From: Branchiostoma floridae
Taxonomy: Eukaryota > Chordata > Leptocardii > Amphioxiformes > Branchiostomatidae
Assembly (NCBI RefSeq): GCF_000003815.2
Contig: NC_049990.1
Coordinates: 11,481,301 to 11,545,300, forward strand
Length of the DNA stretch: 64,000 nucleotides
Direction of reading: 5' to 3'
Under the pieces are notes generated by a model, which worked only from the letters and a program-made list of their open reading frames with translations, was not told the DNA's origin and made no database searches. Shown piece after piece: positions 42,673 to 63,839 of this stretch. The position numbers and the translations under genes are program-made. Each line of letters begins with the position of its first letter. Position 1 is the stretch's first letter.

Positions 42673-45600
42673 ATGGCCTTTACAGTAAGGTTCCTGACTT
42701 TGCAATCGCTTTTGCCTCTGATGTGGACAATTCTATTTTCAATTCATACTGAAGCGGTAGAGAGTAAGAAAAATCTAACGGTGGTAGTGTTGGTGCCTTG
42801 GACCGGACCTTGGCCGATAGGGAAACGCATGGCCCCGGCGGCCGCCGTCGCCATCGACGATATCAACAACAACGACGCCATCCTGCCAGACTACCACATC
42901 GACTTCGTCTGGAGAGACACGGGATGCTCGGCCAGGGAAGGGACGGACGTCACCATGGAGCTGTACGACGAGTTACGGGCGGATCTTCGGGCCATCATAG
43001 GACCGGGCTGCGATGCCGTCTGCGGACCAATCGGTGAGTCCGAGAACCTTCCAGAAAAAGCTTTCGATTGCTCATTACAGTAATTACAGTGTGTCATCAC
43101 AAGACAGTCGACCACTGTTCATCGGCATTGTGCACTACTGAAATATTCCATGTTTGTGTCCAGTGTCATATCTCGTTGAAAAAAAGAAACACCAACTCAC
43201 TTCAACTGGTTCCTTCATTTATGAGTGAAAGTACAAATAACATTAAAGTATACGGGTCTTAACAATCAGTTGCCATGGCACAGGAATATGTTTGAAATCT
43301 GATATCAATTGCTGATGAGTTGCTTTAGATCGGATGGATGCAAGAATGAACAGTAAATGCTAGTAATCGCCAATCAGATTTGCCGGTGGCATAAGACAGT
43401 GTCAAAAGGACTTAAGTAGGCCACCTAGAATCTGCTGGCACTCAAATAGGGAGACGGCTTTACTGGTGACATAAGACATGTTGGATACTGTCTTGGCCTT
43501 TTTGATACCGCTTATGCCATCGGTAAATTTGATTGAAAATCAAATACCAGAACGTTAACGTTGATAATTGGTATCGTAGGTACACATTGCATTAGATGCA
43601 AATAGCAAAACAGCCAATGGCAGTTGTGGGGAGAGATATTGTCAAAGAACCTACCTTGCAAATCGTGTTCAGAGAACTTTTCAGAAGCTAACATATATAA
43701 GGGCCCACTGTGATAAAGTGTAGCTAGCAGGTCGAGTTCTAGAGAGGGTCCAGCTGTCCCTATCAAATTTGAATCTCTGTTTAGGGGACATACCTAATCT
43801 AAAATAAGCGCAGCGTATTTCATATTTGCTTTACAACTGTCTATGTATGCTTTTAAATCTTCGTGGATTTGAAGATATTTGCCACGAATATCCAGTGCCA
43901 GTGAAAATCAAAGAAAACGTTCTTCTCCGCTAAAATCCAAACTGTAATTTTTTTCCTGGGCGAAGCAGAGTTCATCACGTTAATAATAAATCAGTTTAGG
44001 TTTGTAGTTTATACTCCACGTTGTTTACTACTTGTTATAGACTTTGTGTGAACGTCGAATTCTATGTGACGGACATCTAAATACTTGTGTGGTGTAGAAA
44101 TACCATGAATTAGATAGGGTCAAGCGCATCAAAGTGAAAAGCAATTTTTACAAAACCTGGCATATCTACGAAAACCTTACATAGGCATGTGAGAGCGTGA
44201 CCTGGGGATGAAGACGTTACCCAGCTTGCGACCGATTGAGCTGTTTGAAGCGTTTCATCTCAAACGATAGCTCTAATAACGGGTTCCTGACAATGAAAGA
44301 TCAATTGATTTTCGGATTTGCACCTGTACAGGTGTTGGTATCATTAAAGGTCTATCACATGCTTCACACGATAAGTTCACGAAATGTATTCCTATGAAAG
44401 CCGTGGGCTCGATGTGTCCTCATGCTGAATTGTGACGGAAAACTCCGCTTGATAATTCTCATTCAATTATTTTTTTAAATAGCTTGGTAGTCCCATTCAA
44501 TTCTGTGGAATCGTTTGTAAAGAATGTGATTACGCATGTTGATTGAGCTCGGCTGGTTGCGCACGTGTAGGGGCACACATACACGTACAAACGCCTTTCA
44601 CTATACAGACCACTCGTCGTGCATGTCACAAAAGAACCTCGTTATCATGGTAATTACTTTCAAGCTCTTGTTAGGGTTTCGTCCTGTTTTCGTCAAATTG
44701 GCCGGCATAGGGCTATCTAGAAAAGATGTTGTTGAGTATAAGACGTGTAATGCGTTTCTTGATATATAATGGTTTTATTCAGTGAAGACATCAAAGGCAT
44801 GAAGACCCAATTTGCAACCTAACAGCAAACAAAATAAGACATATGTGACACAATCCTTAAATCAACTTTTTTTAAACTACCTGAAAAGGTTTGAGAGTCA
44901 TTGTTCGAATCTATATGTAGTTACAATGAAAATCTACTCGTGGTTTTGAGTTATGTCAAGATAACGGCTCCGTCAATAGTACTGTTTAATTGTCTCTTTT
45001 TTACAGTCTGATCTCATAATGTAGGAAAGAGTTTCTAAGCCTCTGTACATGTGTACATGCTTTCGGTGTACTGAACGATACGGTTACGCGTGTGTCCAGT
45101 GGCTTGTTAATTTTTGTTTGAACCTTTGTTTATTCATGAAAGCTCTAATCAACCTGTGGCTACGGTTCTCGTGGGCGGTTTTCTTTGCTATTTGTTTTAG
45201 GTAAAATTGGACATTTAATGTCGTTAGCAAGTTAAATCTATTTTACTTACTCAGAATTAGTTCCTCACGGGTGGCATAGGTATTACAAATATTCACAACA
45301 GTAAATAGAATCATCCAAATCATTGCAAATTCAAATAATGAGCCCCAAGCCAACGGAGAAGCCTCAGAAGACGATTGGGGTGAATGACAAAATGTGACAA
45401 GCTACATGCTGAAATGTAAGCCTTGGTGTATTCGCTTAAAATGACAAAAAATCATCAACAATGACAAAATAGATCAAGTAATCTACACGATATGTTAGTG
45501 CCATCGACGACATCGTGTAGCAATGCTTCGACATTTCCCTTATCTCGAACGTCTCTATTTCCATTTGTCAGCAGATGTAGTAGTGTGCCTCGGATTCTGA

Positions 45601-48600
45601 ATGATAAAAGTGTGCTCTGGTGCGCCCCATCCATGTCCTGATATGTAACTTTATTGCACAACAATTGTACGAGGTACAAAGTATGGAATCTACATAACTA
45701 CAGTGCTATAACTTAACTAAAGGCTAACTTCTAACTAATACAGGAGTTGTAGTATGGGATAAGTTTCTTACAATCATTGGTGACTTTTACAATCATTTGG
45801 GGAATGTCGAATGTCTAAACCTTCTTTGATATACTTTCCTATATCTGCCATGCAGGGATTGTCACATGTCATTATGTATTTGAATTTGCACTTCAGGTCC
45901 ATTTGAGTATGTTCGTAGTACTTAAGCTTTACGTTTAATGTTGAACTATGATAAGTGACTGTCTGATTTATGAAGTTGTCCTATAGTAGGTATGACACGG
46001 AGGAAATTAGATATTGATGAGAAATTAAGTTAAATCGCCCAATTGATTCCACTAATATATATAGAGTCTAATAAGCCTAATAAGGTGAGGTCACTCGTGG
46101 CTTATTGATTTACTGTCTACTACTGTCTCATCATCTCAAGGTTGTGTGTCTCGATCTTCACGGTTGCATGTTTTAGCCAAAAACGAAAAGGTTGCAGACA
46201 AAAAGTCTTTGCTGCAACAATCTTAAAAGGATACAATACTTTTCATACAAACCATAAGATTTTAAAGAGATATTTAGCTGCACCAGGTGATACCAGGCAA
46301 AGGTGAGATAAAATTATTGTAAGTTGTCATTTCTGAAAGTCATTTATTTGTTGATGGGACTTTTGCGGCTCAATGAGAATATGATTAAAATTTCATAGAA
46401 GATAGACTGTTGAATATGAATTGTATATGCACAAAACATACAAATATAGCAACCTTTTTCACGATATCCAGGAGTTTTAGCAGCCTCGTGGAACGTACCA
46501 GTCGTATCGTGGGGGTGTGCTTCGTCTCATCTCAGCAACAAGGACGAGTACCCGACATTCGCCAGAACAGTGGGACCCTTCACCAAGACTGGGGCCCTCT
46601 TCGTGTCTCTGCTCAAGCACTTCGGTGGGTCGTCGATTGATACATAAAATGGTAAGAAGATAATGTCGGAGAATAGGCAGGCACGACACTAAGTAAGTAA
46701 AGCACTAAGGAAAACAGAAAACCGAGAAGGGTAGAGAAAATTGTTTACCAAATTTTGTGGTGCTCAAACAGTTACACTAAGGGATAAATGATATGATAAG
46801 ACTCAAACGCTTTTTGAATATTGAGGTAATGGGTTGCGATAGCAGTCACTTCAATTTCTGATAGACATTCTGATTCATGCTTGTTGGTGATATCACAATT
46901 TCGTCAGGTCACGTGACCTTAGTGACTGGTCATTCGAACCCGAGGAAGGCTATCTTAGAGACAATCAGGAACTCGATTCTTCCTTGAGTCAGAATACAGT
47001 CAAATTATTAATTAGGAAAATCATACTTCCAATTTGACACTTAAAAAAAAGTTTAGTAACGAGGAAAATGGACCTTTTTAATTAACTAAACGCTAACAGC
47101 TAGATTGAACATCATGTAGGTTGGAGCAGGGCCGCCATCTTGGCTTCAACACAACAAGTATGGCAGACCACGTCACACGCAATCAAGTTGGCCCTGGAGG
47201 ATGACGGGATAACTGTCGCCTTCTTCCAGAGTTTCGACCCTTGGTACGAGCAGATGAGCGACCGTGAGAGGGCCATGCACCATGACGCTCTGGAGACTGC
47301 GAAGCAGAAGGCTAGAAGTAATCATTCCAACTTTCCTCATGCCTTTCTGTGGTAGTATAACGTCACTTTGAAAATAATTTCTGGTTGGCTGAGAGATTTT
47401 TGCCATGTTGTGTTTAGGGATTTTGTGTTGTCTATTTTACTGAGAGACAGAAAAATGTGGTTAAGATTAGTGTCAGAGGAGTAGATGCGCACGAAAATAA
47501 CTTCATCTGGTTGGTAGAATATAGGATATAGGAGAAATCTTGCCACTTTGGGGATTTTGTTCTCGCCGCAAAAGCGCCACCTACAACGGTCATATTTAGC
47601 GGCGAGGAGCAGAAGTTCAGTCAGAAGCTCTGAGGATCTAGGGAGGTGTCTGAGAGACGCTGAAACGTAAGCAAAGTGAGTAAAAATTGGTTGTTCACAG
47701 AATCACAGAAGATGCTCATATTATCATTTTCCTTCCCCAGTCCTTATCTTCTGTGCAGACGGCGGCGACGTGAGGGAGATGCTCTTGATGGCTGCGGACC
47801 TGGGGATCGTGAATGGCGACTACGTCTTCGTTGTCATCAACTTTGCTCCGGATGCCATGTTGGGAGAGAACACGTGGATGGGACGGGACGGAAGGGATGC
47901 GGACGCCAAGAAAGTTTTCAAGTAAAATTGTGTTTGTTTTTTTAAAATAAGAATTACGTGACGTAATTTGTAACATACAAAGTAAAATCAAGATGAAAGC
48001 TCCCTGGTGAAATTTACCTGACAACTTGGGGCTTTAACCAACTAGTATGGATGACAATCCTTACGTCATAGTCACGTGAGTGCAAACGCCCTATTGTTTG
48101 TTACTCCTCCCAGCGGACTGTTGAATGTCCACGTTCACACGCCGTTACTGGAGGACTGGGACATGCTCGAGCGGGAAGTCCGGTACCGTATGGCAGGGCC
48201 GCCGTTCAACCGTGGGATGCAACGATATGAAAAGGTATTAGGTATAGAGAGAACACAATACAGGTAGAGTTAAGAGTCAAGAATGATTATAGGATATGGA
48301 ATAGAGCCACTTATCCCATTGTTTTGGAACTGTAGAGGTGTTTTTGATGGACGCTTTGGAAGAGGATAACACACATGGGAGGGCGAATCTTTTGAGCACA
48401 TAGGTGGAGTTTAAGCAGGCATAATTATGGAATTTTCATAATTGTGTATTGTTCTATTGTTTTTTTTAAGATGTCGCATGTAACTGCGACAGCTACCTTT
48501 CCAGTTGCAGGAGTAACAAAATTACACAGAAAACACGGACACTGAAAATAACATACAATTCCTGTGTGTTCCAAAATAGGAAATTCATACTTGCAAGTGT

Positions 48601-51600
48601 CCACCAGATCTCTGTTCTTCTTCAAAATAACTGATGAACCGATTGCCCAGAACAGGTGACTTACCAATTTGTTTGATGACAGGTTGACGTGTACGCCGCC
48701 ATGTTGTATGACGCAGTGATGCTGTACGCCCTGGCGCTGGATGACGCGCTGAAGGAAGGGGAGTCTGACACGAACGGCGCCCGGGTTGCGCAACTCATGA
48801 CAGACAGGACCTTCGACGGTAACTTGTAGCCTCAGTTGCAGACTTCGAACGGGGCTGGCTTTTATCTTTTTTGGGGGGGGGGCGTGATTTTCAACATTAG
48901 CAAACTTCTTTCCACGGCAAAGCCAGTTCGAAGTGTGCCACGGAGGCTAGGTAACTCGTGCTTTATTGATGTGGATCAAAAACTAATATCAGTTTTATTC
49001 ACTTATATGATTTTAGGCGTCAGTGTTGTACAACTCATGACAGACAGGACGTTCGACGGTAACTCGTGCTTTATTGACGTGGATCCACAAAAATTATCAC
49101 TTTTGTAGTCACTTATATGCTCCCTTGAAAATCAGTTATGTCAACTGAAGGGACGACCCAAAAAAAAATAGATGGTTAAATAAATGAATATGATTTTAGG
49201 ACCTCAAATCAGATTCACAATGAAGTGTTTTTCATCTCTCAACACGATTTGTCATGTCACATGGCAAATTTTAACCTATCCACCACATTAGCCCAGCATT
49301 GAAATATTGACAAAAGGATAAAATAAAGATAAAAGCGGAAGAAGTAAAAGCTATAAAGTTTGAATATGCACGCAGGATATACGACTTGTTGTATTGCTAG
49401 TGATGGTATGTTTGTTTGTTTGTTTGTTTGTTTTACACAGGTATTGCAGGGAGTGTCTCCATAGATGAGTACGGAGACAGGAGCCCCAACTACGTCATTC
49501 AAAACCTGAAGGGTGATCGCTTTGAGGACATAGCCGAATTTGCGACGGCAAATAAGGTGTGTTTTCTATTTGTACTGTCCTTGTCAAAAAATCATTCGTC
49601 TTAGACTGATCTTTACATAAAATTGTACTTGTTTTTTTTTCTTTCATAAAGTGATTATGATAAAAGCGCCTTACAGGAGGAAATAACTCTAACTCATGGT
49701 TGTTGCATGGTTGACACCACAGTTAAAATTATGTCGTATGCCATTTGAGCCCATATGCTTGGGCAAATACCACAAACATTTTCCATGAAGTTTTACTAGT
49801 TTTATGGATAATAAAACAGACGAAGGATATACATTTTGACATCTGAGTGTATCATTCGTCTTAGACTGATCTTTACATAAAATTGTACTTGTTTTTTTTT
49901 TCATAAAGTGATTATGATAAAAGCGCCTTACAGGAGGAAATAACTCTAACTCATGGTTGTTGCATGGTTGACACCACAGTTAAAATTATGTCGTATGCCA
50001 TTTGAGCCCATATGCTTGGGCAAATACCACAAACATTCTCCATAAAGTTTTACTAGTTTTAAGGATAATAAAACAGACGAAGGATATACATTTTGACATC
50101 TGAGTGTAACAACGTAGGATAGAACATCTCACTGAAAACAAGAAGAAGACAAAGGCACGCACTGGCAAGTTTTAGCACCCAAAACCTACACTTTTCAATT
50201 GAAAGAGGCACTGATATTTAGGTACAAGGTGTCGTCTTTCTACAGCAGTTTGTTATTCGGGATAGTCATTGGTATTCTTATCACAGACTACATCTAGTCA
50301 TTTAGTCGAGACAGACCATTAGCGACATAGGAGCCGCCAAATGTTTCACATATTAAAGTAATTGAGGTCCCTACTAAAGGGGTAATCAGCTTCATGATTG
50401 TAAGCCCAATACGCCACGAAAAGCCACGATGTCCGTAATAAAGTTTCTTGCAGCGAATGATTACCACTTACGTTCAGTTTTTCCTGACTACCGTATGCGT
50501 AATGAAGTTATGAAACTCCTTGCAATCATAAGAACTCTTAGACTGGAACGTGCAGTACTTGTTGTATGTCTGAAGAAATTCATAATTTTACACTAGGCCA
50601 CAGTAAGTAAATTTTATGGATGACATCCTCTGCAGACGGCAAAAATAGTGAGATAGGGCAAAAAAAAACAAGATGGGTAAAAAAAACAAGATGGGTAAAA
50701 AAAACAAGATGGCTAAATTTTCCAAATATACGCACTATAAAACGTTAAAAAAAAAGAATCGAAGCGACGAAACATGGTATAACAGCCTACAAGCCAGGCA
50801 TTCGTTTCTGTATTCACGACGTGTACTAGTGTAGCAAAGGTGACATTAGTGTGGTAGACTGGTATCACTTACCAACATGGCAACAACACGCATGGCTTCC
50901 ATATTGGGGCCACTTTTACAACTATCTAACTAAACTTTTAGTTTCACTTCTATAACTACATTCATGGCTAACTGGCTAGTGTCACTTCTACAATTAAAAC
51001 CATTTAATAGCCTACAACACAACATATTTGCCCATTTTGGTACTTTCTCGTCATGTAGACCATCTCCGAAGGAAAACATAGTCTTGTTTTTTTCTTCTGA
51101 AATCAGGCAAAAATTAATGCACGCGGATGTCATCCATAAAATCTACTTGCTGTGGCCCTACGGAGAATGATTTTGAGAGATCTAAGGTCTAGCTTATATA
51201 ATTGAGGTACCTACCTACTAAAAGGTATAAATGATTATGTGACTGACGATAAATGATTATAGACCCATGCGCTACTAAAAGCCACACACCATGCCATTAA
51301 TGACATTGATTGCAGCGAATGATTGCTTTTTTGAACTTTTGATTTGACTGTCATGTGCATTATGAGGTAATGTAACTATTAAGTCAGCGATAAAGTGAGT
51401 CATGCTTTGAAACGCTTTAACGTACACATTAGTCTACTTAAATAATTCCATTAAGCGAAATCACAGTCTAGAATGTACAATTATGCAACAAGATGAGCTC
51501 AGAAAGGTTGAGTGGGATAAAATGAATAGAATACGTGTATTCATGCATGCAGAAATGGGTACATTTTCCAATATGTCTAGCTCATAAGCTTGAAAGTTTA

Positions 51601-54600
51601 TTATACACAATCAAGAAGAATATTGCTGCTGTTAAAAGGTTTAAAACAAACATGATTAATAAAAGAGATAAGAATGATGCAATATCGATGGTCTTAATTG
51701 TAACCAGAAGATGTGACGTAAGTGTGAACGGTTGGCTTAAGGTTGTCCTTCCCCACATACTATACTTAATTGTAACCGGTATGATGTAGAGGATTTCGTC
51801 TGCTTGCCAACTAAACAAAATCAAATCACCGAATCGCTGAGTCCTCTTCAGCTATGTGACCCTATCGCTTTCCACACGTGACGCCATTCACATATGACGT
51901 CAGCAATAGGTCAAAGGTTGTCGGGAGTCGATATCACCCCTTCCCAGTTGAAAGAAAGTTGGCGCGCCCTAAAAGAGAAAGCGTATACTAATGTCATGGA
52001 ATATTCCAAGATCAAAGAGAGTATAAAAACAAGTGCTTTTAAAAAAGCTGGCATTTTGCCAATGTTTGCGTGTGTGAACGTTTTTTTTCTAGTTATTAGA
52101 ATGTCATATAAATAGAACAGAGTAACTAAACCTGATATTGGCGCATGGAGAGATTCACATATGTGCCTGAATCTAGATCTAGACGCCACCTGTTAAAATT
52201 TGCGTGAACTGCAGCAAATTTCACTACACTGCCTGTTTTTGAGTGAGCTCTGTTGCGGGGCATTTTTAAGTTGTTTTTTTTTTTATTTTTATTTCTATTC
52301 GGCAAAACAACGAAGCGGCGAATCCGTTAACCAAAGAAATAAATTGGTGTGGCCAAATGGATGTAAAAATTAGTATTTTAATGGTGTAAAAAAGAAAAAA
52401 AAAATCTACCTCCCCGGATTCGAACCGGGTGATTGGTTTAGAATGCGTAAACTTTAACCACTGCGCCAGTGCGAACTTGTTGCAAAAATGCCTGTTTTAA
52501 CAGGTATAGAAATGTTTGGCATGAATTGAACAGGTCCGTTCATCTCAACATCACAACGGCCACTATTCTGGCCTCAGAGCATTTTGCCGCTAAGGCGGCA
52601 AAATGCAAAAAATTAAGAATCTATTGTTTGGTATACCATATTCTGTGACCAATCATTTGTTCAGCCTTCCAGGCCACTCAGATTCCATAACGAGGGCAAC
52701 TTTTTTGTCAATTTTTTTTTTATTCGCACGCTCGCATCAGTTTTTAGGTTGCCATCCACACAACCAAATCAACGTGGCCTAAATTACATGTATCAATGTT
52801 TCCGCCAGTCGCTAGATATGCGGGACGTGGACATAGTGTGGGCGGGTGGAAAGTCGGCTCCACCGATCGACAGTCCGGAGTGTGGCTGGGACAACGATCT
52901 CTGCGCCGACGATTCTTGTGAGTAATTTTTTTTCCATAATGGCTGTAAAGAAAACTTAATGAGCATTTGATACATCACTTTGAAATACGTACTGTATGTT
53001 CCTATGACGTATATGCTAAGTTAATAAAGACAAATATATGTATTGGATGTTAGGGATTAGATCCCAGAATTCAAAGACAAGATAACGAAAAACAAATGCT
53101 TCAATTCCCCAGTGATGACCTTTTTACAAGAGGCAAGATACAAAGGTACAACCTACACCTGTAGATGTATAATAAATACATTCTGGAATTTTTCCGCGCA
53201 TTGACAGCCAATAGAAAATACCACGCACATGAAAAGCCTGTATGAAAATCATCATGTGTTTGTGTTGATATCTCGAGGACTATGAGTACTCAGTTTTTTT
53301 AAAGAAAGTGATTCTGCCCACCAGANNNNNNNNNNNNNNNNNNNNNNNNNNNNNNNNNNNNNNNNNNNNNNNNNNNNNNNNNNNNNNNNNNNNNNNNNNN
53401 NNNNNNNNNNNNNNNNNNNNNNNNNTAAGTGTCGTTCTTTGTTACGTTACGTTTGTTTCAATTTTTCAGATCAGATTGCTTTGGGCGCAGTTGGTTCTGC
53501 CGTAGTATTTATCGCCCTGGCCACAACAGTCATATTCTTCTGGTACAGGTATGTGCATAGTGCTATACTCCCCGAGAGCACCGAACTACAGTTTGAAATG
53601 ATATTGTTGGATGTGTATGTATTTTATCAGTATATGCAGTGGTGAGTTTTCTTGAAGGATTTTAAAATTTAAAATGTGTCCACTCCAGTCAGCAGCACCA
53701 TTGTTGATGAAACACGTTGTCAATTACGTGCTTCTTCCAAAAGTCAATAACGATTTGGTTACAGGTGTGACATATTTCTTCATTGATTTGTTGGCTAAAC
53801 TGAATTACGACTTTCTTTATTCACAACTAACATCTATAAACAGCCAACGTTTCTGTGACCGTCTGTTACCTTCATCACTGCAGCTAGGGGGCGCTCCTAG
53901 ATGATGAAATTATTCACGGGTTTGGGTGCTACAGTGTCAACCTTTTCTGCTCACGGTATTTTCTTGCGTCGCTTTTGACACGACCAGGAGCTGTAAATAT
54001 GAAGCTGACCTTAACGATCGCAGCCTGTGGATGATCGATTATAGTGACATTGTCATCGAAACACACGGCCACGGGTCGACCCAAACGGACGTTGAGGTAA
54101 CGTAGAACCGGTAACCCAGAATAAGACAACACGCTCTCCAGTATGTTGCAGTCACTGAAACAAGCTTCTCGGCGTCAAAGTGTACAGTTTTTCTTTTCAC
54201 TTATCTACGATTTCTATAAAATGAAAAAAAAAAATAAAAGAAAAAAATGACTAAATTTACTTTTACTATTTAGAAACTTTTTATGAATTGTCACATTTCA
54301 CTACAAAAGTTGTTTCAGATAAATATCACAGAATGTCATTTGTTTTACTCGAATATATTTGCTACAATACAATAAGAGTATGACTATGTATGCAAATTTA
54401 TCAGAACAGTATTCTGCTCAAGTCCTAGCCCTATGCAGGAAACAATACTATTCACTACGATACCTTTGAACCCTTCAAAACCGGTTAAGGCCAAAGGGAT
54501 CGTATTGCGTTACTCAAGGGTAAATAACGGTTTAAAAAGATTAAGAAAATAGAAGATATAGACATTTTTGAAATGCAATTCATATGTGGCTTGGAAGGTG

Positions 54601-57600
54601 ATCTGCAGCATACTAATGCGCTTGTTGTGAGTACCTGCCCCCCTCCCCACCAAGTCATGAACACCCATGCATGTTTTCTTGGCAACACCGCTGTGGTTCG
54701 TGTCTCCCAAATCTCAGGAAGTGTATGCTCGAGCGGAATTTGACTGACCAGAGTCTTTGGATAGTCGATTACGCCGACATCGTCATGCCTGAACATCCCG
54801 TTGGTCATTCCTCTGTATCTCAGGTATGATTAAAGGCAGCCTAAGCAATGTTATAGAAATAAAAGTGGAAATAATCTGGATAAGGCAATCTGTATGAAAT
54901 TGATATCTACTGCATTGTATTCCCACATTTACATGCATTATTTCATACTTTGAGTGGTTAAAAAGGCGCAGAAACAAGCCGCACTAGGATTCCCTAAAAT
55001 TGAAACTCACAAAAATTAGGCCTTGAACTAGCGTCCTTGTGCCTTTGGGGCATCGAATTTTGGCTCCTTGAATGTTGGTATGGAATAGAGTTGCTTTATC
55101 TTATAATTAACTTTGATAATTGAAGTTCTGCAACCCTGACTCGGGCTAATATTGCTTGGGTTACCTTTAAGGCAGTTGTACTAAAGAGACATGTGCCTTC
55201 AAATGACACTTGTTGTTATTCGCTGGGCACCATTGTTTAACGTATGTGTTTGTACTGTAATTTCTAACAAAACAATTTGACTTGCCCAAGTTTTCAACTG
55301 TCCAGCTCCAGTCTTTGCCAAGCATAAGTTGCAGATAGTTTGTAGCAGCCCTCGTCACTGTTGAGGGATGGTTGATAGATACCGATGTCAGTGATGTCTC
55401 TTACTTTTCTTGCACGTTGAAAGTCTTCTTATTTCAGGGCAGTGCACGGGCAAGCAGTCAAGGTTCCCAAGTCACTGGAAGTAAGAATATGACTAAGAGC
55501 ATTGGTGGCCAAACTCACACGTCTAGTGGCAGCGGCACCACCACTGAGAACATATTCCACACCATCAAAAGTGGAAAAACTATCATCGGGAAATACAAGG
55601 TCAAGAAACAACCACATACATGTTGTATCTGTCCTATAACCTCCAAGCAGATTCTAGTAGTATATCTGAGGAGGAGTGAAGCCGGCCTAGAAGTGCGTAT
55701 GCAACCGGTGCCCGTCTGACTACATTTGGCCGACTATACTCCTTGGCTAGCTTTGATACTATCGTATGGCACCGTAGGATTTGCATGGATATTATCTGTC
55801 GTATACAATTTAATCTCTACAACTGGATATAATTCTGGACGCTACGAATGGCACACATCACACACACTGGAATGAACTGGCAGGACTAGCACAGTATGTA
55901 CTGGATACTACTGGAAACACTTGGAAGTATTAATCTCCGAATGCTATCCAGGTGTACGGATTTAATTGTCTAGGAATATTGTTATCATTGATTTTTTTTA
56001 ACCTTCTTCAATGACATGTAGTATATACATTGTTCCGACGGCTACAACGCCTTATATCAGTATTGTGCGAAGCTTTGTGTCGTTATTATGAATAAACAAT
56101 GACTACCATGTATCATTTTGCTTTTTGACAGATGTCATGTCATGTTGTAACGTTATGTTGAATACAGCATGTTGTTTTAAACATGGAAGGCATTATCACA
56201 TTATGCTATTACACAAACTGTATACATTTTGACAATATCCTTATTGCAACATAGTATCTACGGGCTAATGTTTCAGGGTAACATTGTGGCCATGAAGAAG
56301 ATAGAAAGGGAGAAGCTGGTGATCACACGAAAACACCTGACGGAGTTCAAACAGGTAAAGCATTTTATCGACTCCGGGTGTAGAGTCTTTATCATCTTTG
56401 GACGCCTGTCTGTGTTGCTCTGTGTCTGTAGTTATTTGAATGCACCAGTACTGTCAGAAGAGTGACATGAAGTTGATGGGACGATGGCCACATGCACCAA
56501 GGTCACACTTATCGCGAAGGTCAGCCGTACTCAGTAAACATGCCCGTAGCCAAGGTTTTGGTGTGTGTGTGTCGGGGGGGGGGGTTCTTTTTAATACTTG
56601 TGGGACCATCGAGCGCCGCAGGCGTGAGCTGCCTAGGGGGCTCCGGGGGCATGCTCCCCCACAAAAATTGAAATCTGACCCTCTGAAATGCCATTTCCTC
56701 CATTTTTACGGGCAAAATTCGCAGGCTAAGTTTAATGGAATTTCTATTAAAATACGCAAGGCCGTTGGCATAAGTCTTTGAGGCCAACTTCCCCGACCTA
56801 TTTATTACCATGTCCGACACCGAAGGCGCGAGGTGTCGCAATGGAGGTCGGGGAAATTTTGAAATCTGGATTCTCTGAAAAGCCATTTTCTGCACTTTCT
56901 GGAGCATATTTTTAAAGGCTTACTAAGATTGAATGAAATGTCCATCAGTGAAAAATGGAAATCAGTCATGCCTTCGAAAAACATCTTGGACATAAAAAAG
57001 TGGACCTTCGAGCGTGAAAAAGCGAACCCCCCGAACCCCCCTGGCTACGGGCATGGTAAATACCGGAGTGTTTAAACTTGCTCCGTAGAATCCCAAAACG
57101 GCAGGGAGTACAGTTCAGTTCAGTGGTAGAACCAGCCGTTAATCAGACATGGCAGTCCCAGTCTTGCGGCCTGGAAGAGGCGGGGAGATTTTGTCCTGAG
57201 TTTGAGTTTGCATTTCGCATTTAAGTTAACTCCTTATGCTGGTTGCTTTCGCTGTAGTGACAGGACGTGTCATGTTTTGCATTGGAAATTGCAAAATTGT
57301 TTTTTTTTTCAGATGAGGGACCTGCTCCATGAAAATGTCAACATCTTCGTAGGCGCTTGCATCTACCCACCCAGAATCTACCTCATCACTGCCTTCTGCT
57401 CCAAGGGAAGTCTACAGGTCAGTCAGAGAATCAGATATTCATAGATACGTAGTTTATGTAGTTGTCAATACTGCTATATGTCATTACACTTAATGTATAA
57501 TGTATGGCAGATTGTTCTCTACTTGATATACACGTACAAATAGCCATACAGTGTAACATAAAACTTAGATAAATAACAAAATAAACACGGATCTGTTTCA

Positions 57601-60600
57601 GGAATTGAGAACCTATAGGTAGTACTAATACCCTATTATTAGTATGGAAAAGTTTGTCTTTATTAAAACGTAATGTCGATCTTAAGGATGAATAAGACAA
57701 AATATGAATAATTCGTTTTTTGTAAGTAATATTAAAAGCACCGTTCGACATTGATTGGGAACGACCTACACTGCTGATCTTGAAGAAGGAGCATTGGCCA
57801 AATATACCTGATACTCACTGTCACTTGTCATCTTCACACAGTCCAGTATAATCTATGTATCTATCTAGTATCTATATCTCTCTCTATATATATACATATG
57901 ATTATATGTATATCAAACAAACTATATCACGTTACTTCACCGCAGGACGTCCTTGAGAACGATAGCATACAGATCGACAACAATTTTAAGATGTCGTTCG
58001 CTATGGATATCGCCAAGGTAACGTAATCTTGCATGGTGCACCAGTATTGTGTTCGTTCATATTGGTGGTGATTACAATGTCATGGAGTAGCTATTTTCCC
58101 CAAAGGCCAAATAAAGGTCAAATCCATTCCACACGGTGTCATCAAATCATTAATTCTGTGCTTTGCAAATCTGTAAAAATTATTCTAGGTCTCTTTATGA
58201 TCATGACAACACATATTAAGCCTTCCCCAGTCTGATAGAAGAAAGCATATGGCAGAGAGGGAATATGTGTGAGCTTGAAAGCTTGCAATTTACAACGGTG
58301 ACAATGCTTGAAATGACTTCAGGCTAATTGCCGCTTTACGTCGATCGAGTAGACATCCAGCATGATCCAGGTAATAAGATATGCCAAAAAGCAGTTATTG
58401 AATCAACTGGATATGATTTAGGAAACGATAAGACGTTTCAGATAGCATCCACTATCTTTCGTCAGTGACACTGAAGTGATCTTGGAGAACCGGGCCGGGT
58501 CTTTCATACCATAACTTTGAATGCAAAAGAGCTGAAGACAAATGGCCGCTTTACTGCATAGAACATCTGCAAGGAGATGTAGAGGAAAATAGCTACCCCC
58601 TCTGACATCATGCCCCCCTCCCCATCCCATTGCCGTCACGATTCACCGTGTTTCTACATCCAGGATCTCCTGGAAAATGACAGCATAAATCTTGACCAAT
58701 CCTTCAAGATGTCCATTGCTGTCGACATTGCTAAGGTGAGGGGTTATCAGACCAGTGATGGAACTCCTTTTGGGGTAGCCTGTGATCCAGTCGTGTTCGG
58801 CCTACGTCTCGATCTTTGATGACAATACTTTGTTTCGAAGGCTGAACACGACTGGAAACCAGGCACTTTTTGGGATCCATCCATGTTGTAAATTAGCAAT
58901 GTGCACTGATTATATCGACAGGTACAAAGGGAGATTCACGTAAGTATGCCGTTTGTCACTTTCTTGGATCCAATACTGTTATATACTGTCTTTATCTCTG
59001 TGTATACTGTAACAACCCAATGGCAATGCTATGTTCTTTGCACACTTAAAAAACTAACATTCTCGATCGAAATTGTTCACACCTTTATCAATTGGATAGG
59101 TAGACTTATGTAATTGATCGTATGTACCTTGTCTTATTTACGTTTACTTTTACGCTATACATCTTGTTTTAATGTGTACATTGAATTAATTGTTTTATAT
59201 TCATACCCACATCTTTTTTTTTGGGGGGGGGGCATTTTTCTGTACACTGTGCTTCTTTTGTATGAATACGTGTGAAAGAAAAAAAATGCCCTTGGATTTA
59301 TTTTTGTGTATTATACATGTATAAAGATACTTAAAATACGTGTTACCTTGATGCAATGCTTGTATGTATTGGTTAAGGGGATGGCCTTCCTGCACGGGAC
59401 GGTCATCGCTTCCCATGGCAGACTGAAGTCCTCGAACTGCGTGGTGGACAGTCGCTGGGTGGTCAAGGTGACAGACTACGGCATGGGCGACTTCAAGTGT
59501 GACCAGGATGACGCGGTTTGGGAGTCAGAACACGCTCGCTACACTGGTATGCAATGTGATTTTTGTTTATCTACAGGAACAATCTTTCACTAGATCTAGA
59601 CGTCACTAATTGATGTTTTCATCTCCCTTCATCCATCCATCCATCCATCCATCCATCCATCCATCCATCCATCCATCCATCCATCCATCCATCCATCCAT
59701 CCATCCATCCATCCATCCAATCATCCATCCATCCGTCCGTCCGTCCGTCCCTCCATCCATCCATCCATCCGTCCGTCCGTCCATCCATCCATCCATCCAT
59801 CCATCCATCCATCCATCCATCCATCCATACATACATACATACATACATACATACATACAAACATACATATCTACATGCATATCTATATTTATTGAGATTA
59901 CACATTTTATCACACCGCCCCAGACATGTTCTGGACTGCCCCAGAGCTGTTACGCTGTGCCGCCAATGGAAACTACGGTTCGCAGAAAGGCGACGTCTAC
60001 GGCTTTGGGATCATCCTGGCGGAGATCGCGCTCCGGAGCGGCCCCTACAGCGCACAGTCTGTCCTGGATCCGAAAGGTAAAATAACTCTCATAACATTAC
60101 CTATTATGCACATGATGGGCGACCTCGACTAACATACATATACCAGCTTGCTCGTGATGTGGGGTTGCGGATTGAGGGGTTAAAGAACGCTATGGGGGAC
60201 AGAGACGTTTGGAAGAGGAGGACCTGGTCCGGGCAAGTAGCCCGCGACGATGATGATGAGCATAACTTATGTGTCTACAGCAAATGAAAGAATGAAACAT
60301 ATTTTCTATGTTAAGCAATGAAGATGAATGTTAACCAGCAGTGCTAACGTTGGTGTTCTTTCTCGTGGCATGTTCCAAGAGCAAGTTAGTTGTCATCATG
60401 AGAGAAAGAAAGCTTTGAAAAAAATATTGAATTTAAATTAATTTGTATCAAAGGGTTTCATTTGTATTAACTGAAGTAGACTCTTCGAAGCTTACGCTAA
60501 AAGAGCTAACATGATATCCAGATTGAGGGCCAGTTTACGTTGCTTATCACCGACGGGACATTCATTTATTATAGAATATATTAATATTGTGCCAGTTATC

Positions 60601-63600
60601 AATGAAGAGTTGTGCGGATAGTTCATAGGTGATACAACTATAGTCGTTATATTGAATCGGACACGGCAGTACAGGTCATGGGGTCAATGGATGAGGCTAC
60701 TATTTCAGGAGAGGTGTTGCTTTTGGTCTATTAGTTTGTATTTTCCCAGTTGTGTATATATTCCTACTAGTCACGTTCACCGTATGCTTAGTCCAACTGG
60801 AAGTAATCAATGGACACACATAATTAAAACCTGATCTCCATATTGAATGACTAACAATCAAAAAAGGGATTTCTTGACATTTCACCGACATTGTGACATT
60901 AGTGAGCAAATTTTCGCTGCTGTTTCAACTCCAGGCATTATACAAGCTGTGAAGTTCGGCCAGGAGCCCGTGTACCGTCCCGTCGTGCCGCAGGACAGCT
61001 GTCTGCACGAGATGCACCGCCTGATGGAGTCCTGCTGGGCGGAGCTGCCCGACCGCCGGCCAAGCTTTCAGTCCATCATCTCATGGCTCAAAAAGATGAA
61101 CGGCGGAAAGTTAGTTTTGTTTATGGCCATATTCGCATAACCAGTAGATACTTGAACTGTTAGACTTACCATACTCTTAAGCAGTGACTGCCCACTAAAT
61201 AATTAGCCACATTTACAACAACAATACGACAGCCTGTGCTTCCATCTCTGTTTCTCTCTGTCTGTCTGTCTGTCTCTCTCTATACATATATGTATATATG
61301 CTATAATGTATGTGTGTTTGAATGCGCTTGTGTGTATAATCTAACATACAAACGAAAAAACGAAAACAAAAAGTAGTGTCACTAGAACTTTGATTGAGAA
61401 TTCAACAACTTGAAGGCACAGGGCAGAATTTTTAATCCTATACTTTATTCACACATATAACAAGTGATTGAAGATGATTATTTTAAACTAATACCTTCTG
61501 TCTCATGCTTGTATATAAGATGAGACCACTATTCTTTGAAAACTATTTGCTATGTATGCTACCAGGTTGATGACTGTGGTGGATAACATGTTCTCTATGA
61601 TGGAGAAGTACGCCTCTAACCTGGAGGAGCTGGTCCAGGAGCGAACACAGCAACTGGACGAAGAGAAGAGGAAGACAGACGAGCTGCTCTACCGAATGAT
61701 ACCGATGTAAGGATCCTAAACACTATCAACAAGGCAAATAAAAAAGAGAAAGAGATCTTTTGTTACGTTATATGTATTCATTGTGATAAAAATTTACGTT
61801 TTATGACTAGCTTTTTATAAACAATTGCAAACGCTACCAAATGACACCAAGGTAAGGATCTTAAACACTACTAACAAGACAAGTTAAACCACCTTTGTAA
61901 CAGAGAAGGAGATCTTTTGTTACGTTATCTGTATTCATTGTGATAAAAAATTACGTTTTATGACTTTTCATAAACAATTGCAAATGCTACCAAATTATAC
62001 CAAGGTAAGGATCCTAAACACTATCAAGACCAATTGAATCATCTTCGTAACAGAAAAAGACACCACTTGTTACGTTATCTGTATCCATTTTGAAAAAGAT
62101 TACGTCCTATGATTTCAAATTTCCTCCAAGCAATTGCAAACGTTACTGAATGCTACCATTGTAAGGATCCTAAACACTACCAAGGAGACCAATTGAACCA
62201 CCATTGTAACAGAGAAACAGATCATTTGTTGCGTTATATCTGTATCCATTTTATAAGAATTTGTGTTTTATGATTTACCATAAAAAACGTTATTGTTTTG
62301 ACTCCTGAATAGATGAAGCCACAGTATAGTTTATGCAGTTTCTCGTACATAACATGGAGATGGACATGATATACTCAGCAGGATGAAACGTACATATTGT
62401 ATGATACTAAAGGAACTGTGAGTTGAATATTTTGTTTGCTTATTTCTCTGAAAATAGTATTCATTTAATCAATGAGAATTATCTTAAAGGGACCGACTAT
62501 GATGTTGATATGATTGACGCTTCATTCAACAATAATCAGATACGATCATCTTCCTATCAACAGTTTTGTGGCCAACAAACTGAAGGTCGGTGAAACCATC
62601 GCACCCCAGACCTTCGAGTCCGTGACCGTGTACTTCAGCGACATCGTGGGGTTCACCAAACTGGCAGCTGCAAGCTCGCCGCTTCAGGTAGGGGTTCCTC
62701 TGTCATCAAGAAAGTAGACTAGAATTCAGTTACTTTTCTCTAATTTCTGGATTTAGGAAACCTATATGAAATGTAGTAATTATAGCCAAAAAGAAATTCG
62801 AAAGGGAACAAGCATAAAACTTAATGCTAAACACAAGAACAGTAAAGTCATCACAGATCAACTGACGAAGCTTATATTTGCTGATATTTTAAGATATGAT
62901 AAAGTCAAAGGGGTGCATGTTGATCGATACCAAACTTATGGTATGAACATTCTTATTTTCTTCAAAAGGTTGTCGACTTTCTGAATGACCTGTACACACT
63001 GTTTGACGGCGTCATCGAGAAGTATGATGTTTATAAGGTAAGGCAAGGACTGAGGTTGAGTATGTCCAGATAATAAGTATATTTTATTTAAAGAGATTGA
63101 TTAAGGGAGTAAATTAATCCAATGTAGTCACAAATACTGGAAGTTTACATTCATATACAATGTAGAAATACCATCTAAACGATATGTATAATTATATTAT
63201 ATGTATGTATCTTTTGTGTACCTATGGGTTTTAACCTGAAATAAAGAATAAAGAAGAAGAAGATATCATACAACGAAATCAAGTCATGCACATATATCAT
63301 CTCGTAAACAGTTGCATTATGCACACTATTCATGTTAACCGGTTAGACATGGGTATGCAGAGATTACTAAATATAATATTTCCCTATGTTTGTAATAAAC
63401 TTAAGACTAGGATGATTTAGGTTAATTCACTTAAGACTAGGATGCTAGAGGTGCAATATGAAAGAGATATAAACTTAGAACGACCCATTGCCGGCAGTAC
63501 GTTTGTGAATGATACGGCATTATTTCAATTCAATTCAAAAGTCCGTTTTTTTTTCTAAAATATTGTTCAGTTGTATATATTGAGTTTACTTTTTTCGCTC

Positions 63601-63839
63601 CAGGCACCTCTTTTGATGAGTAATGTACGGAATGTGCCTTTACGCTCCATGGCTGTTGTTTCAGGTTGAGACTATCGGTGACGCCTACATGGTGGCCTCT
63701 GGGCTGCCTGAGCTGAACGGGAACCGCCACGTCAGCGAGATCGCCACCATGGCGCTGGAACTTCTCTCCTGCCTCAAAAACTTCACCATACGTCATCTTC
63801 CACAGAAACAGCTCCAGCTGCGCTGTGGCTTCCATACAG
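42673..63839 (+). CDS. NPR-type receptor guanylate cyclase with duplicated alternative exons (3' end beyond window)
   Basis: Single-pass receptor that makes cGMP on peptide binding. Coding exons: 42673-43033, 46472-46624, 47120-47317, 47741-47921, 48114-48234, 48683-48818, 49441-49556, 52809-52917, 53470-53548, then 53988-54096 OR 54718-54823, 55438-55599, 56277-56354, 57313-57417, then 57946-58017 OR 58664-58735, 59378-59546, 59924-60076, 60935-61109, 61566-61706, 62564-62687, 62969-63037 and 63665-63839 (open, about 995 codons). Phases agree throughout. Order: signal peptide (about 1-27), ANF-receptor ligand domain (to about 455, ending with a CGWDNDLC cysteine loop), TM helix (about 461-484), pseudokinase ([13 protein letters not shown] replaces HRD; TDYG), dimerisation helix ([17 protein letters not shown]) and cyclase domain. 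The two metal-binding aspartates are in YFSDIVGFT (about D899) and ETIGDAYM (about D943). Closest family: vertebrate NPR1/NPR2. Confidence 0.95.
43034..46471. other. Intron 1 of the receptor guanylate cyclase
   Basis: 3.4 kb without a recognisable exon or clear transposon; AT-rich with only short chance frames. Confidence 0.5.
48951..49120 (+). repeat. Tandem 108-bp duplication containing a copy of the end of cyclase exon 6
   Basis: GTAACTCGTGCTTTATTGA.GTGGATC occurs at 48951 and 49059, each followed by a related AT-rich stretch ending CACTTATATG. Between them lies a copy of the end of exon 6 with its donor. Confidence 0.85.
49017..49058 (+). CDS. Putative 42-nt cassette mini-exon, copy of the exon 6 tail
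   Basis: Bounded by acceptor ATGATTTTAG (ending at 49016) and donor GACG/GTAACT (GT at 49059-49060). It enters and leaves in phase 1 like exon 6, so inclusion keeps the frame and adds 14 residues. It reads [14 protein letters not shown] against [14 protein letters not shown] at the end of exon 6 (48777-48818). Position: end of the ligand-binding domain. Transcription is not shown. Confidence 0.4.
49591..50108. repeat. Near-identical 260-bp tandem duplication in cyclase intron 7
   Basis: ATCATTCGTCTTAGACTGAT begins copies at 49591 and 49851. They continue nearly base for base through CATCTGAGTGTA, differing by a small indel in a T-run and a few substitutions. It is recent, or an assembly artefact of two haplotypes. 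Confidence 0.95.
50320..51400. repeat. Diverged duplicate segments in cyclase intron 7
   Basis: 50355-50520 and 51200-51375 share AATTGAGGT.CCTAC, AAAAGCCAC and TTGCAGCGAATGATT, in the same order. Between them, 50650-50715 holds three copies of a roughly 19-bp AAAAAACAAGATGGGTA unit. Confidence 0.65.
51874..51902. promoter_or_regulatory. E-box and palindromic CRE in cyclase intron 7
   Basis: CACGTG (about 51876) and a perfect cAMP-response element TGACGTCA (51895-51902) lie within 30 bases. A 73-codon frame of unknown meaning follows directly. Motif-only evidence. Confidence 0.3.
52405..52475 (-). pseudogene. tRNA-like sequence (SINE head)
   Basis: The minus strand has TGGCGCAGTGGTTAAA (A-box-like), a 5-bp anticodon-type stem GTTTA/TAAAC with a 7-base loop, and a T-arm CCCGG-TTCGAAT-CCGGG. 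Position 33 is G rather than T and the acceptor halves do not pair, so it is not a functional tRNA. It lies 330 bases before exon 8. Confidence 0.55.
53326..53425. other. Assembly gap, exactly 100 N
   Basis: Intron 8 of the guanylate cyclase, 44 bases before the transmembrane exon. Exons 8 and 9 still join in frame, so an additional duplicated exon could be hidden but none is required. Confidence 1.
53988..54096 (+). CDS. Alternative juxtamembrane exon 10a of the guanylate cyclase
   Basis: Acceptor CACGACCAG, donor GAG/GTAACG; enters phase 2, leaves phase 0 (109 nt). Encodes [20 protein letters not shown], then [16 protein letters not shown]. It corresponds to the segment between the TM helix and the kinase-homology core that in vertebrate NPR1 contains LWRVRWED. 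It aligns with exon 10b over [15 protein letters not shown] / [15 protein letters not shown] (10 of 15 identical); the tails differ. The divergence argues against an allelic duplicate. Confidence 0.85.
54718..54823 (+). CDS. Alternative juxtamembrane exon 10b of the guanylate cyclase
   Basis: Acceptor CCCAAATCTCAG, donor CAG/GTATGA; same phases as 10a (2 to 0), 106 nt. Encodes [20 protein letters not shown], then [15 protein letters not shown]. If spliced after 10a it is read out of frame and meets TGA at its tenth codon. If both are skipped, exon 9 to exon 11 is also frameshifted to an early stop. So exactly one of the pair can be used. Confidence 0.85.
55438..56115 (+). CDS. Exon 11 with possible intron-retained terminal form (truncated receptor)
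   Basis: Exon 11 (55438-55599) is a Ser/Gly/Thr-rich linker ending TIIGKYK, and it fits exon 12 (GNIVAMKK), as in NPR1 (YYKGNLVAVK). Its donor AAG/GTCAAG is weak (C at +3, A at +5). Read-through adds 39 codons from [12 protein letters not shown] to MQPVPV and stops at TGA 55717-55719, with AATAAA at 56091-56096 followed by a T/G-rich stretch. That would be a complete alternative last exon. The product would keep the ligand domain and TM helix but lack the pseudokinase and cyclase domains. Confidence 0.4.
56091..56096 (+). terminator. Candidate intronic polyadenylation signal
   Basis: AATAAA followed within 40-60 bases by TG-rich sequence (TGTCATGTCATGTTG). It lies between exons 11 and 12, downstream of the read-through stop codon. 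Confidence 0.4.
56534..57060. mobile_element. 517-bp TIR element in cyclase intron 12
   Basis: Ends CATGCCCGTAGCCA (56539) and TGGCTACGGGCATG (ending 57055) are perfect inverted repeats. A GTAAA direct repeat flanks them (56534-56538, 57056-57060). The interior has two related halves, each with TTGAAATCTG.....CTCTGAAA.GCCATTT. No transposase. Confidence 0.85.
57946..58017 (+). CDS. Alternative kinase-homology exon 14a of the guanylate cyclase
   Basis: Acceptor CTTCACCGCAG, donor AAG/GTAACG; 72 nt, phase 0 to 0. Encodes [18 protein letters not shown] then AMDIAK. It corresponds to the pseudokinase segment that in NPR1 reads DILENESITLDWMF. It is 17 of 24 residues identical to exon 14b. Confidence 0.85.
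58375..58560 (-). repeat. Interspersed retroelement-like repeat, copy 3 (hammerhead-like box)
   Basis: On the minus strand CTGACGA (58465-58459), the six-base-pair hairpin and GAAA (58439-58436) are conserved, followed by CGTCTTATCGTTTCC. It lies between the alternative exons 14a and 14b. Confidence 0.6.
58664..58735 (+). CDS. Alternative kinase-homology exon 14b of the guanylate cyclase
   Basis: Acceptor TTTCTACATCCAG, donor AAG/GTGAGG; 72 nt, phase 0 to 0. Encodes [18 protein letters not shown] then AVDIAK. Either copy fits between exon 13 (CSKGSLQ) and exon 15 (GMAFLHG). Using both would repeat 24 residues inside a folded kinase-like domain, so mutual exclusion is expected although the frame does not enforce it. 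Confidence 0.85.
58777..58865. mobile_element. Small hairpin element
   Basis: TAGCCTGTGATCCAGTCGTG, then TTCGGCC on the left, pair with GGCTGAACACGACTGG...CCAGGCA on the right. It follows exon 14b by 40 bases. Confidence 0.6.
59625..59872. repeat. (CATC)n / (CATA)n microsatellite
   Basis: About 200 bases of CATC repeats with CGTC variants, then about 40 bases of CATA. It fills most of intron 15 and ends about 50 bases before exon 16. Long frames on both strands are repeat artefacts. Confidence 0.97.
61694..62270 (+). repeat. Four tandem units (about 150 bp) starting at the end of cyclase exon 18 and copying its splice donor
   Basis: The unit begins with the last codons of exon 18 (CTACCGAATGATACCGAT) and its donor GTAAGGATCCTAAACACTA. 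Copies with the donor word GTAAGGATC lie at 61707, 61852, 62005 and 62161 (spacing 145, 153, 156). Each unit continues with TTGTTACGTTAT.TGTAT.CATT and CAATTGCAAA. Only the first is in the coding path; reading past it gives an immediate TAA. Confidence 0.92.

Follow-up and report, generated by a model that had tools for sequence, protein, structure and literature searches.

A 64,000-nucleotide (nt) stretch of the Branchiostoma floridae genome (hereafter the window; assembly GCF_000003815.2, contig NC_049990.1, positions 11,481,301 to 11,545,300 of the forward strand) carries a gene that, judging by its sequence, encodes an NPR-like particulate (receptor) guanylate cyclase. Two tandem exons of this gene, 10a and 10b, encode alternative versions of the juxtamembrane segment, and very probably they form a genuine, old, and functional mutually exclusive pair. 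Only one exon 10 at a time yields an open receptor frame, and sequence comparison suggests that the two are used alternately and that this use has a function. Each tandem pair is counted once in the exon numbering, and the cassette exon 8b stands outside it. The lancelet protein records used for comparison are P0001 (B. floridae), P0002 (B. lanceolatum), and P0003 (floridae x belcheri hybrid). The main features are as follows.

53988..54096, + strand: exon 10a, juxtamembrane version a (36 residues, 109 nt), the type found in hybrid record P0003
54718..54823, + strand: exon 10b, juxtamembrane version b (35 residues, 106 nt), found in P0001, with the same type in B. lanceolatum P0002
54745..54747, + strand: TGA in frame on double inclusion of 10a and 10b, at the tenth codon of 10b

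Both exons have AG/GT borders and run from phase 2 to phase 0, and their lengths each leave a remainder of 1 when divided by three; all splice sites of the pair are GT-AG, and the intron between the two exons is 621 nt long. Joint inclusion reads EVYARAEFD followed by a stop, 76 nt ahead of the 10b end, and skipping of both exons shifts the frame of exon 11 and leads to an early stop inside it. The preliminary description of this DNA had claimed homologous tandem exons with identical phases, the TGA on double inclusion, and the frameshift on double skipping; coordinates, splice dinucleotides, lengths, and phases were all verified, as were the TGA at 54745-54747 and, by translation, the early stop in exon 11. 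This supports the claim that the reading frame enforces a choice between two juxtamembrane exons of an NPR-type cyclase. Criteria for tandem mutually exclusive exons are given in PMC3228551 and a human survey in PMC5740500 (both available in excerpt), and 10a and 10b show similar length, compatible splice sites, the same frame, and homology beyond chance. A juxtamembrane hidden Markov model (HMM), built partly from 10a and 10b themselves, finds them at E 9.6e-12 and 4.5e-12, respectively. Applied to the six-frame translation of the window (2822 segments, each 15 residues or longer), this model reports no third copy of exon 10, with nothing else below E 0.38.

The protein alignment of 10a and 10b has a BLOSUM62 score of 92, in comparison with a shuffle mean of 18.6 and a maximum of 40 (z 18.2; none of the 5000 shuffled versions scores as high). 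In codons 1 to 27 the proportion of synonymous differences (pS) is saturated at 1.0 and that of nonsynonymous differences (pN) equals 0.32; the first, second, and third codon positions differ 8, 9, and 19 times, respectively. The two exons are jointly under constraint; the pairwise ratio does not give the share of each copy. The flanks, taken as 300 nt in each direction, are no more alike than their 200 shuffled versions, which together with the saturated silent sites indicates an old duplication. According to an alignment of 45 receptor cyclases, picked from 120 listed homologues of 362 matches, the juxtamembrane glutamate is invariant, and a tyrosine, an arginine, a leucine, and a tryptophan are each at least 90% conserved. 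All five residues (Y, R, E, L, and W) are kept in both versions, the tyrosine being encoded by exon 9 and the arginine codon being split.

As for the lancelet proteins, all 3 records contain exactly one exon-10 version (10b in P0001 and P0002, 10a in P0003), and each joins exon 9 to that version and then to exon 11. The two flanking exons are:

53470..53548, + strand: exon 9, transmembrane helix (read by eye), ending in phase 2 (..TGG TAC AG), with the same junction in P0001-P0003
55438..55599, + strand: exon 11, segment rich in serine and threonine, found in each of the three lancelet records; aligns with the part of human NPR1 that is phosphorylated

P0003 is named isoform X3, and its cluster comprises 8 sequences from one contig; the B. 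lanceolatum cluster has 3. The second parent of the hybrid is given in a shortened form, Branchiostoma b..., which is compatible with belcheri. Because the identity of P0003 to the query over the searched region is only 79%, it is presumed here to be the belcheri copy. Conservation in sister species, on which the preliminary description had made its claim depend, is seen at the protein level, with the 10b type in two species and the 10a type in floridae DNA and in the hybrid record. Same-type pairs between species are identical in 18 of 24 residues, in contrast to 12 to 14 for different-type pairs and 13 for 10a and 10b of B. floridae. Type-diagnostic residues (K/M, A/R, D/N, and R/Q at positions 4, 7, 8, and 12, respectively) are common to the species. 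The exon-10 tree groups the lancelet exons together with 81% support and unites 10b of B. floridae and B. lanceolatum with 99% bootstrap, so the duplication should predate the split of these two species. The available part of PMC6305399 puts this split at about 72 million years, the table node taken for it having an interval of 31.93-149.68. In mean closeness to ten outgroups the 10a sequences (0.38 and 0.36) are slightly ahead of the 10b sequences (0.35 and 0.35); this difference is too small to assign either copy as ancestral.

Several observations weigh against this interpretation. P0001-P0003 are genome predictions, not transcripts, and apparent differences between lancelet proteins have been blamed on gene-prediction errors (PMC6071037, available in part). 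Among the cluster representatives listed (120 of 362 matches), the sole B. floridae record has 10b and not 10a, and no single species is represented with both exon-10 types. The two 10a sequences are not united in the tree, where the hybrid 10a joins 10b with 60%. Whole-intron duplex energies gave no sign of intron-intron pairing as a mechanism of exclusion, as they did not surpass those of shuffled introns (60 for each pair; z 1.7, 0.3, and -0.2) in what is a weak test on the DNA of one species. A search for short lancelet protein fragments as transcript evidence returned 17 proteins with a best identity of 60%; 5 are named, and none of these 5 is from a lancelet.

An all-against-all comparison of the reading frames of the window revealed a second tandem pair, 14a and 14b, in the pseudokinase part of the same gene. 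The preliminary description was silent on this pair and on an in-frame cassette, 8b, in the extracellular stem.

57946..58017, + strand: exon 14a, pseudokinase version a (24 residues, 72 nt, phase 0-0), 24/24 residues identical in B. lanceolatum P0002
58664..58735, + strand: exon 14b, pseudokinase version b (24 residues, 72 nt, phase 0-0), found in P0001, with the same type in hybrid P0003
53113..53145, + strand: exon 8b, in-frame cassette (11 residues, 33 nt) in the extracellular stem, located between exons 8 and 9; matched in P0001 and P0003 but not in P0002

The two exons 14 share 17 of 24 residues (pS 1.04, pN 0.18). Since 72 is divisible by three, their double inclusion and double skipping both stay in frame, and this pair is not frame-enforced. 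The exon-by-exon self-search left out exons 2, 4, 9, 16, 17, 8b, 20, and 21, which are covered by the comparison of open reading frames (segments of at least 25 residues, best 60 rows); short or diverged copies of these eight may exist. Two pairs and one cassette make eight isoforms possible, a number that matches the 8 members of the hybrid cluster, which is suggestive only. It is conceivable, but rather doubtful, that the gene is combinatorial as a whole, with 8b, 10a/10b, and 14a/14b giving up to eight cyclase receptors of varied stem, juxtamembrane link, and pseudokinase that are tuned together across tissues.

Related loci served as a control. The residues of exons 14-15 searched against the whole genome (513 Mb, 431 contigs) give at least 24 matches at E up to 1. 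Three of these lie in the receptor gene itself; of the matches outside it, 11 are strong (E no higher than 5.3e-7) and 10 are weaker. About 9.9 kb around and upstream of each of the 11 strong matches was scanned, three of these regions containing N (2321, 262, and 288 bases). Exon 14 has one match below E 0.001 in 11/11 loci and two in 0/11, and the borders checked in ten of them (L035 left out) show one 72-nt exon preceded by AG, with 9 GT donors and 1 GC. L035 (G000:C15:1104800-1114700) has its exon-14 region in two pieces (E 0.00035 and 0.71), unlike the other ten. L036 (G000:C12:11450500-11460400) is a receptor-cyclase-like relative with a single exon 14, located on the same contig and strand about 80 kb upstream of exon 15. 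For exon 10 the control is weak, as 3 of the 11 loci have one match below E 0.01, none has two, and the other 8 are uninformative. A genome search with exon 9-10a, again at E up to 1, gives four matches, namely exon 9, 10a, and 10b of the receptor gene and a fourth one (C1, E 0.77), which was rejected as a further copy and read as AT-rich chance sequence.

The preliminary description had also credited both exons 10 with good splice sites. This holds only in part: 10b has G at +5, whereas 10a has a thin polypyrimidine tract (6/11) and a donor, GTAACG, that lacks G at +5. However, the 10a sites are low in the range of the gene and no outlier, given that 7 of 17 other modelled donors outside both pairs also lack this G. 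The same donor contrast is repeated in the second pair, where 14a is without G at +5 and 14b has it. Introns after 10a (54097-54104) and 14a (58018-58025) both begin GTAACGTA, and no other of the 210 donor pairs in the gene shares its 8-mer; GTAACGTA occurs 5 times in the window on both strands, compared with 1.17 expected, and one related locus has GTAACGCT after exon 14. Donors without G at +5 and an identical intron start after both a exons hint at a shared regulator, and one may speculate that 10a and 14a are co-regulated through this common donor start. Counting against it are the 7 of 17 other donors without G at +5, the enrichment of the 8-mer in the window, and the fact that the records mix a and b exons. 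As a guess, 10b would be the likelier default, the b exons being default and the a exons needing help.

In the proposed mechanism, each transcript would take one exon 10, chosen by splicing factors that presumably act on the unequal splice sites. Inclusion of both or neither would bring in a stop codon far ahead of the exon junctions still to come, and from general knowledge such transcripts would be expected to undergo nonsense-mediated decay or to give a truncated receptor. As both wrong outcomes end in an early stop, the frame would guard the output. The membrane-to-pseudokinase link of the receptor would then be one of two sequences on a conserved skeleton (R at the membrane, then E, L, and W) with different flanks and tail, and the swap most likely adjusts how ligand-driven movement is transferred to the pseudokinase and cyclase. 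Exons 14a/14b would vary the pseudokinase and 8b the extracellular stem of the same receptor.

Alternatively, the pair might be mainly an on/off switch, in which regulated double inclusion or skipping leads to decay and thereby to less receptor, and in which the choice of 10a or 10b sequence is of little consequence. The early stops in both wrong outcomes fit this explanation, as does the excerpted finding that lengths are not divisible by three in 60% of human clusters (PMC5740500). It is nevertheless unlikely, since diagnostic residues common to the species at positions 4, 7, 8, and 12 are unexpected if the difference is idle, and 14a/14b, being in frame, cannot act as a switch. One member, most likely 10a in B. 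floridae, might also be a relic or rarely used, leaving essentially one juxtamembrane version there; the 10b in P0001 and the somewhat weaker splice sites of 10a would agree with that. Such a relic seems quite improbable given that 10a has no internal stop, intact AG/GT sites, signs of codon selection, and the family motif, and that its type is used in hybrid record P0003. That 10a and 10b belong to different transcripts for another cause, e.g., an alternative promoter or two overlapping genes, is extremely improbable, because both exons are internal with the same phases and shared flanking exons, and in all three protein records exon 9 is followed by one of the versions and this by exon 11.

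Regarding what a mutually exclusive exon 10 might change, the preliminary description named coupling or phosphorylation. The available part of PMC3348905 reports seven phosphorylation sites for GC-A (487, 497, 500, 502, 506, 510, and 513) and six for GC-B (513-529), the role of Ser-487 of GC-A being controversial. When P0003 is aligned with human NPR1, exon 11, which is contained in all three records, corresponds to the stretch with the GC-A sites from 497 onward; most of the known GC-A and GC-B sites, which are clustered, thus lie on a constitutive exon, and the phosphorylation part of the proposal is the less supported one. Ser-487 and the putative site Ser-473 (GC-A)/Ser-489 (GC-B), the latter located nine residues beyond the membrane, map to exon 10 by our own count on the alignment, and the tails of the two versions differ in serines and threonines (7 and 6 for 10a vs 5 and 5 for 10b in all). 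At the Ser-473/Ser-489 column, 10a and 10b are alike, because 3 of the 4 lancelet exon-10 sequences have D and 1 has N, and all 4 have a serine two columns on. Coupling is therefore the likelier target of the swap, an effect on phosphorylation being possible. A GCAP1-sensing switch has been placed in the juxtamembrane domain of a photoreceptor cyclase (PMC5023690, available in part), which suggests that this region is regulatory in the wider family.

The remaining part of the gene model is summarized below.

42673..63839, + strand: receptor guanylate cyclase gene, 21 exons modelled, extending beyond the window end
52809..52917, + strand: exon 8, extracellular stem
56277-56354, + strand: exon 12, pseudokinase
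57313-57417, + strand: exon 13, pseudokinase
59378..59546, + strand: exon 15, pseudokinase, part of the query for related loci
62969-63037, + strand: exon 20
63665-63839, + strand: exon 21

P0001 starts in exon 4 and is identical to the exon model with 8b, 10b, and 14b in 755 of 770 residues from exon 4 to exon 21. An assembly gap directly past the window (L002 1-1092) covers part of the B. floridae cyclase domain, and the last coding exon with its stop lies beyond it, at about L002 1352-1459. The C-terminal end of P0001 consists of 15 unrelated residues, probably because of this gap. Pfam matches in P0001-P0003 are ANF_receptor, kinase homology, and cyclase domains, with P0001 missing the N-terminus and part of the cyclase, and P0003 matches human NPR1 chain 9bcl_A over 30-1077 with E 7.1e-221. 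Natriuretic-receptor names in the lancelet records are given by similarity. The 3' end of exon 6 and its donor have seemingly been duplicated recently into the following intron, at about 48785-49115 (10-residue repeat near 49017-49058).

Tandem mutually exclusive exons are a well-known kind, and according to the excerpts of PMC3228551 and PMC5740500 they are in general, like 10a and 10b, adjacent internal exons of similar length, same phase, and common origin; as in 60% of human clusters (PMC5740500), the length of the lancelet exons is not divisible by three and double inclusion breaks the frame. In contrast to such pairs in general, 10a/10b sits in a receptor guanylate cyclase, and the second pair, 14a/14b, is divisible by three and not frame-enforced. 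As far as seen, this location is new: no published tandem or mutually exclusive exon pair of a receptor cyclase was found in the open-access literature, judged from titles and abstract starts, in agreement with the preliminary description, which knew of none in the family. The splicing of the orthologue may already be in databases, undescribed, since NCBI names its isoform X3. Mammalian GC-B/NPR2 splicing (GC-B2 and GC-B3; Tamura and Garbers 2003 via PMC4249455, available in part) likewise alters the intracellular kinase-homology region in the same receptor family. GC-B2, with its 25-residue deletion, and GC-B3, however, arise by removal or truncation and act as dominant-negative receptors, with no exchange of homologous exons. 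Two predicted mammalian NPR2 records from two species, P0104 (FRPYRKLMLE) and P0112 (FRKLMLE), differ by PYR at the transmembrane-juxtamembrane junction, which by eye falls on the codon split by the lancelet exon 9/10 intron. Unlike the lancelet exchange, this is a small junction change, and no search was made there for a second homologous exon.

In NPR-type receptors the ligand signal reaches the cyclase through the juxtamembrane segment and the pseudokinase, in a way that is incompletely understood. Exons 10a and 10b offer a ready-made experiment on the juxtamembrane segment: their types are conserved across lancelet species, one apparently replaces the other while the rest of the receptor is unchanged, and their comparison shows where residues may vary and where they may not. 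The natural pseudokinase swap 14a/14b in the same protein adds a test of whether both regions work together. For the animal itself, it appears that the signal-passing link just inside the membrane can probably be swapped.

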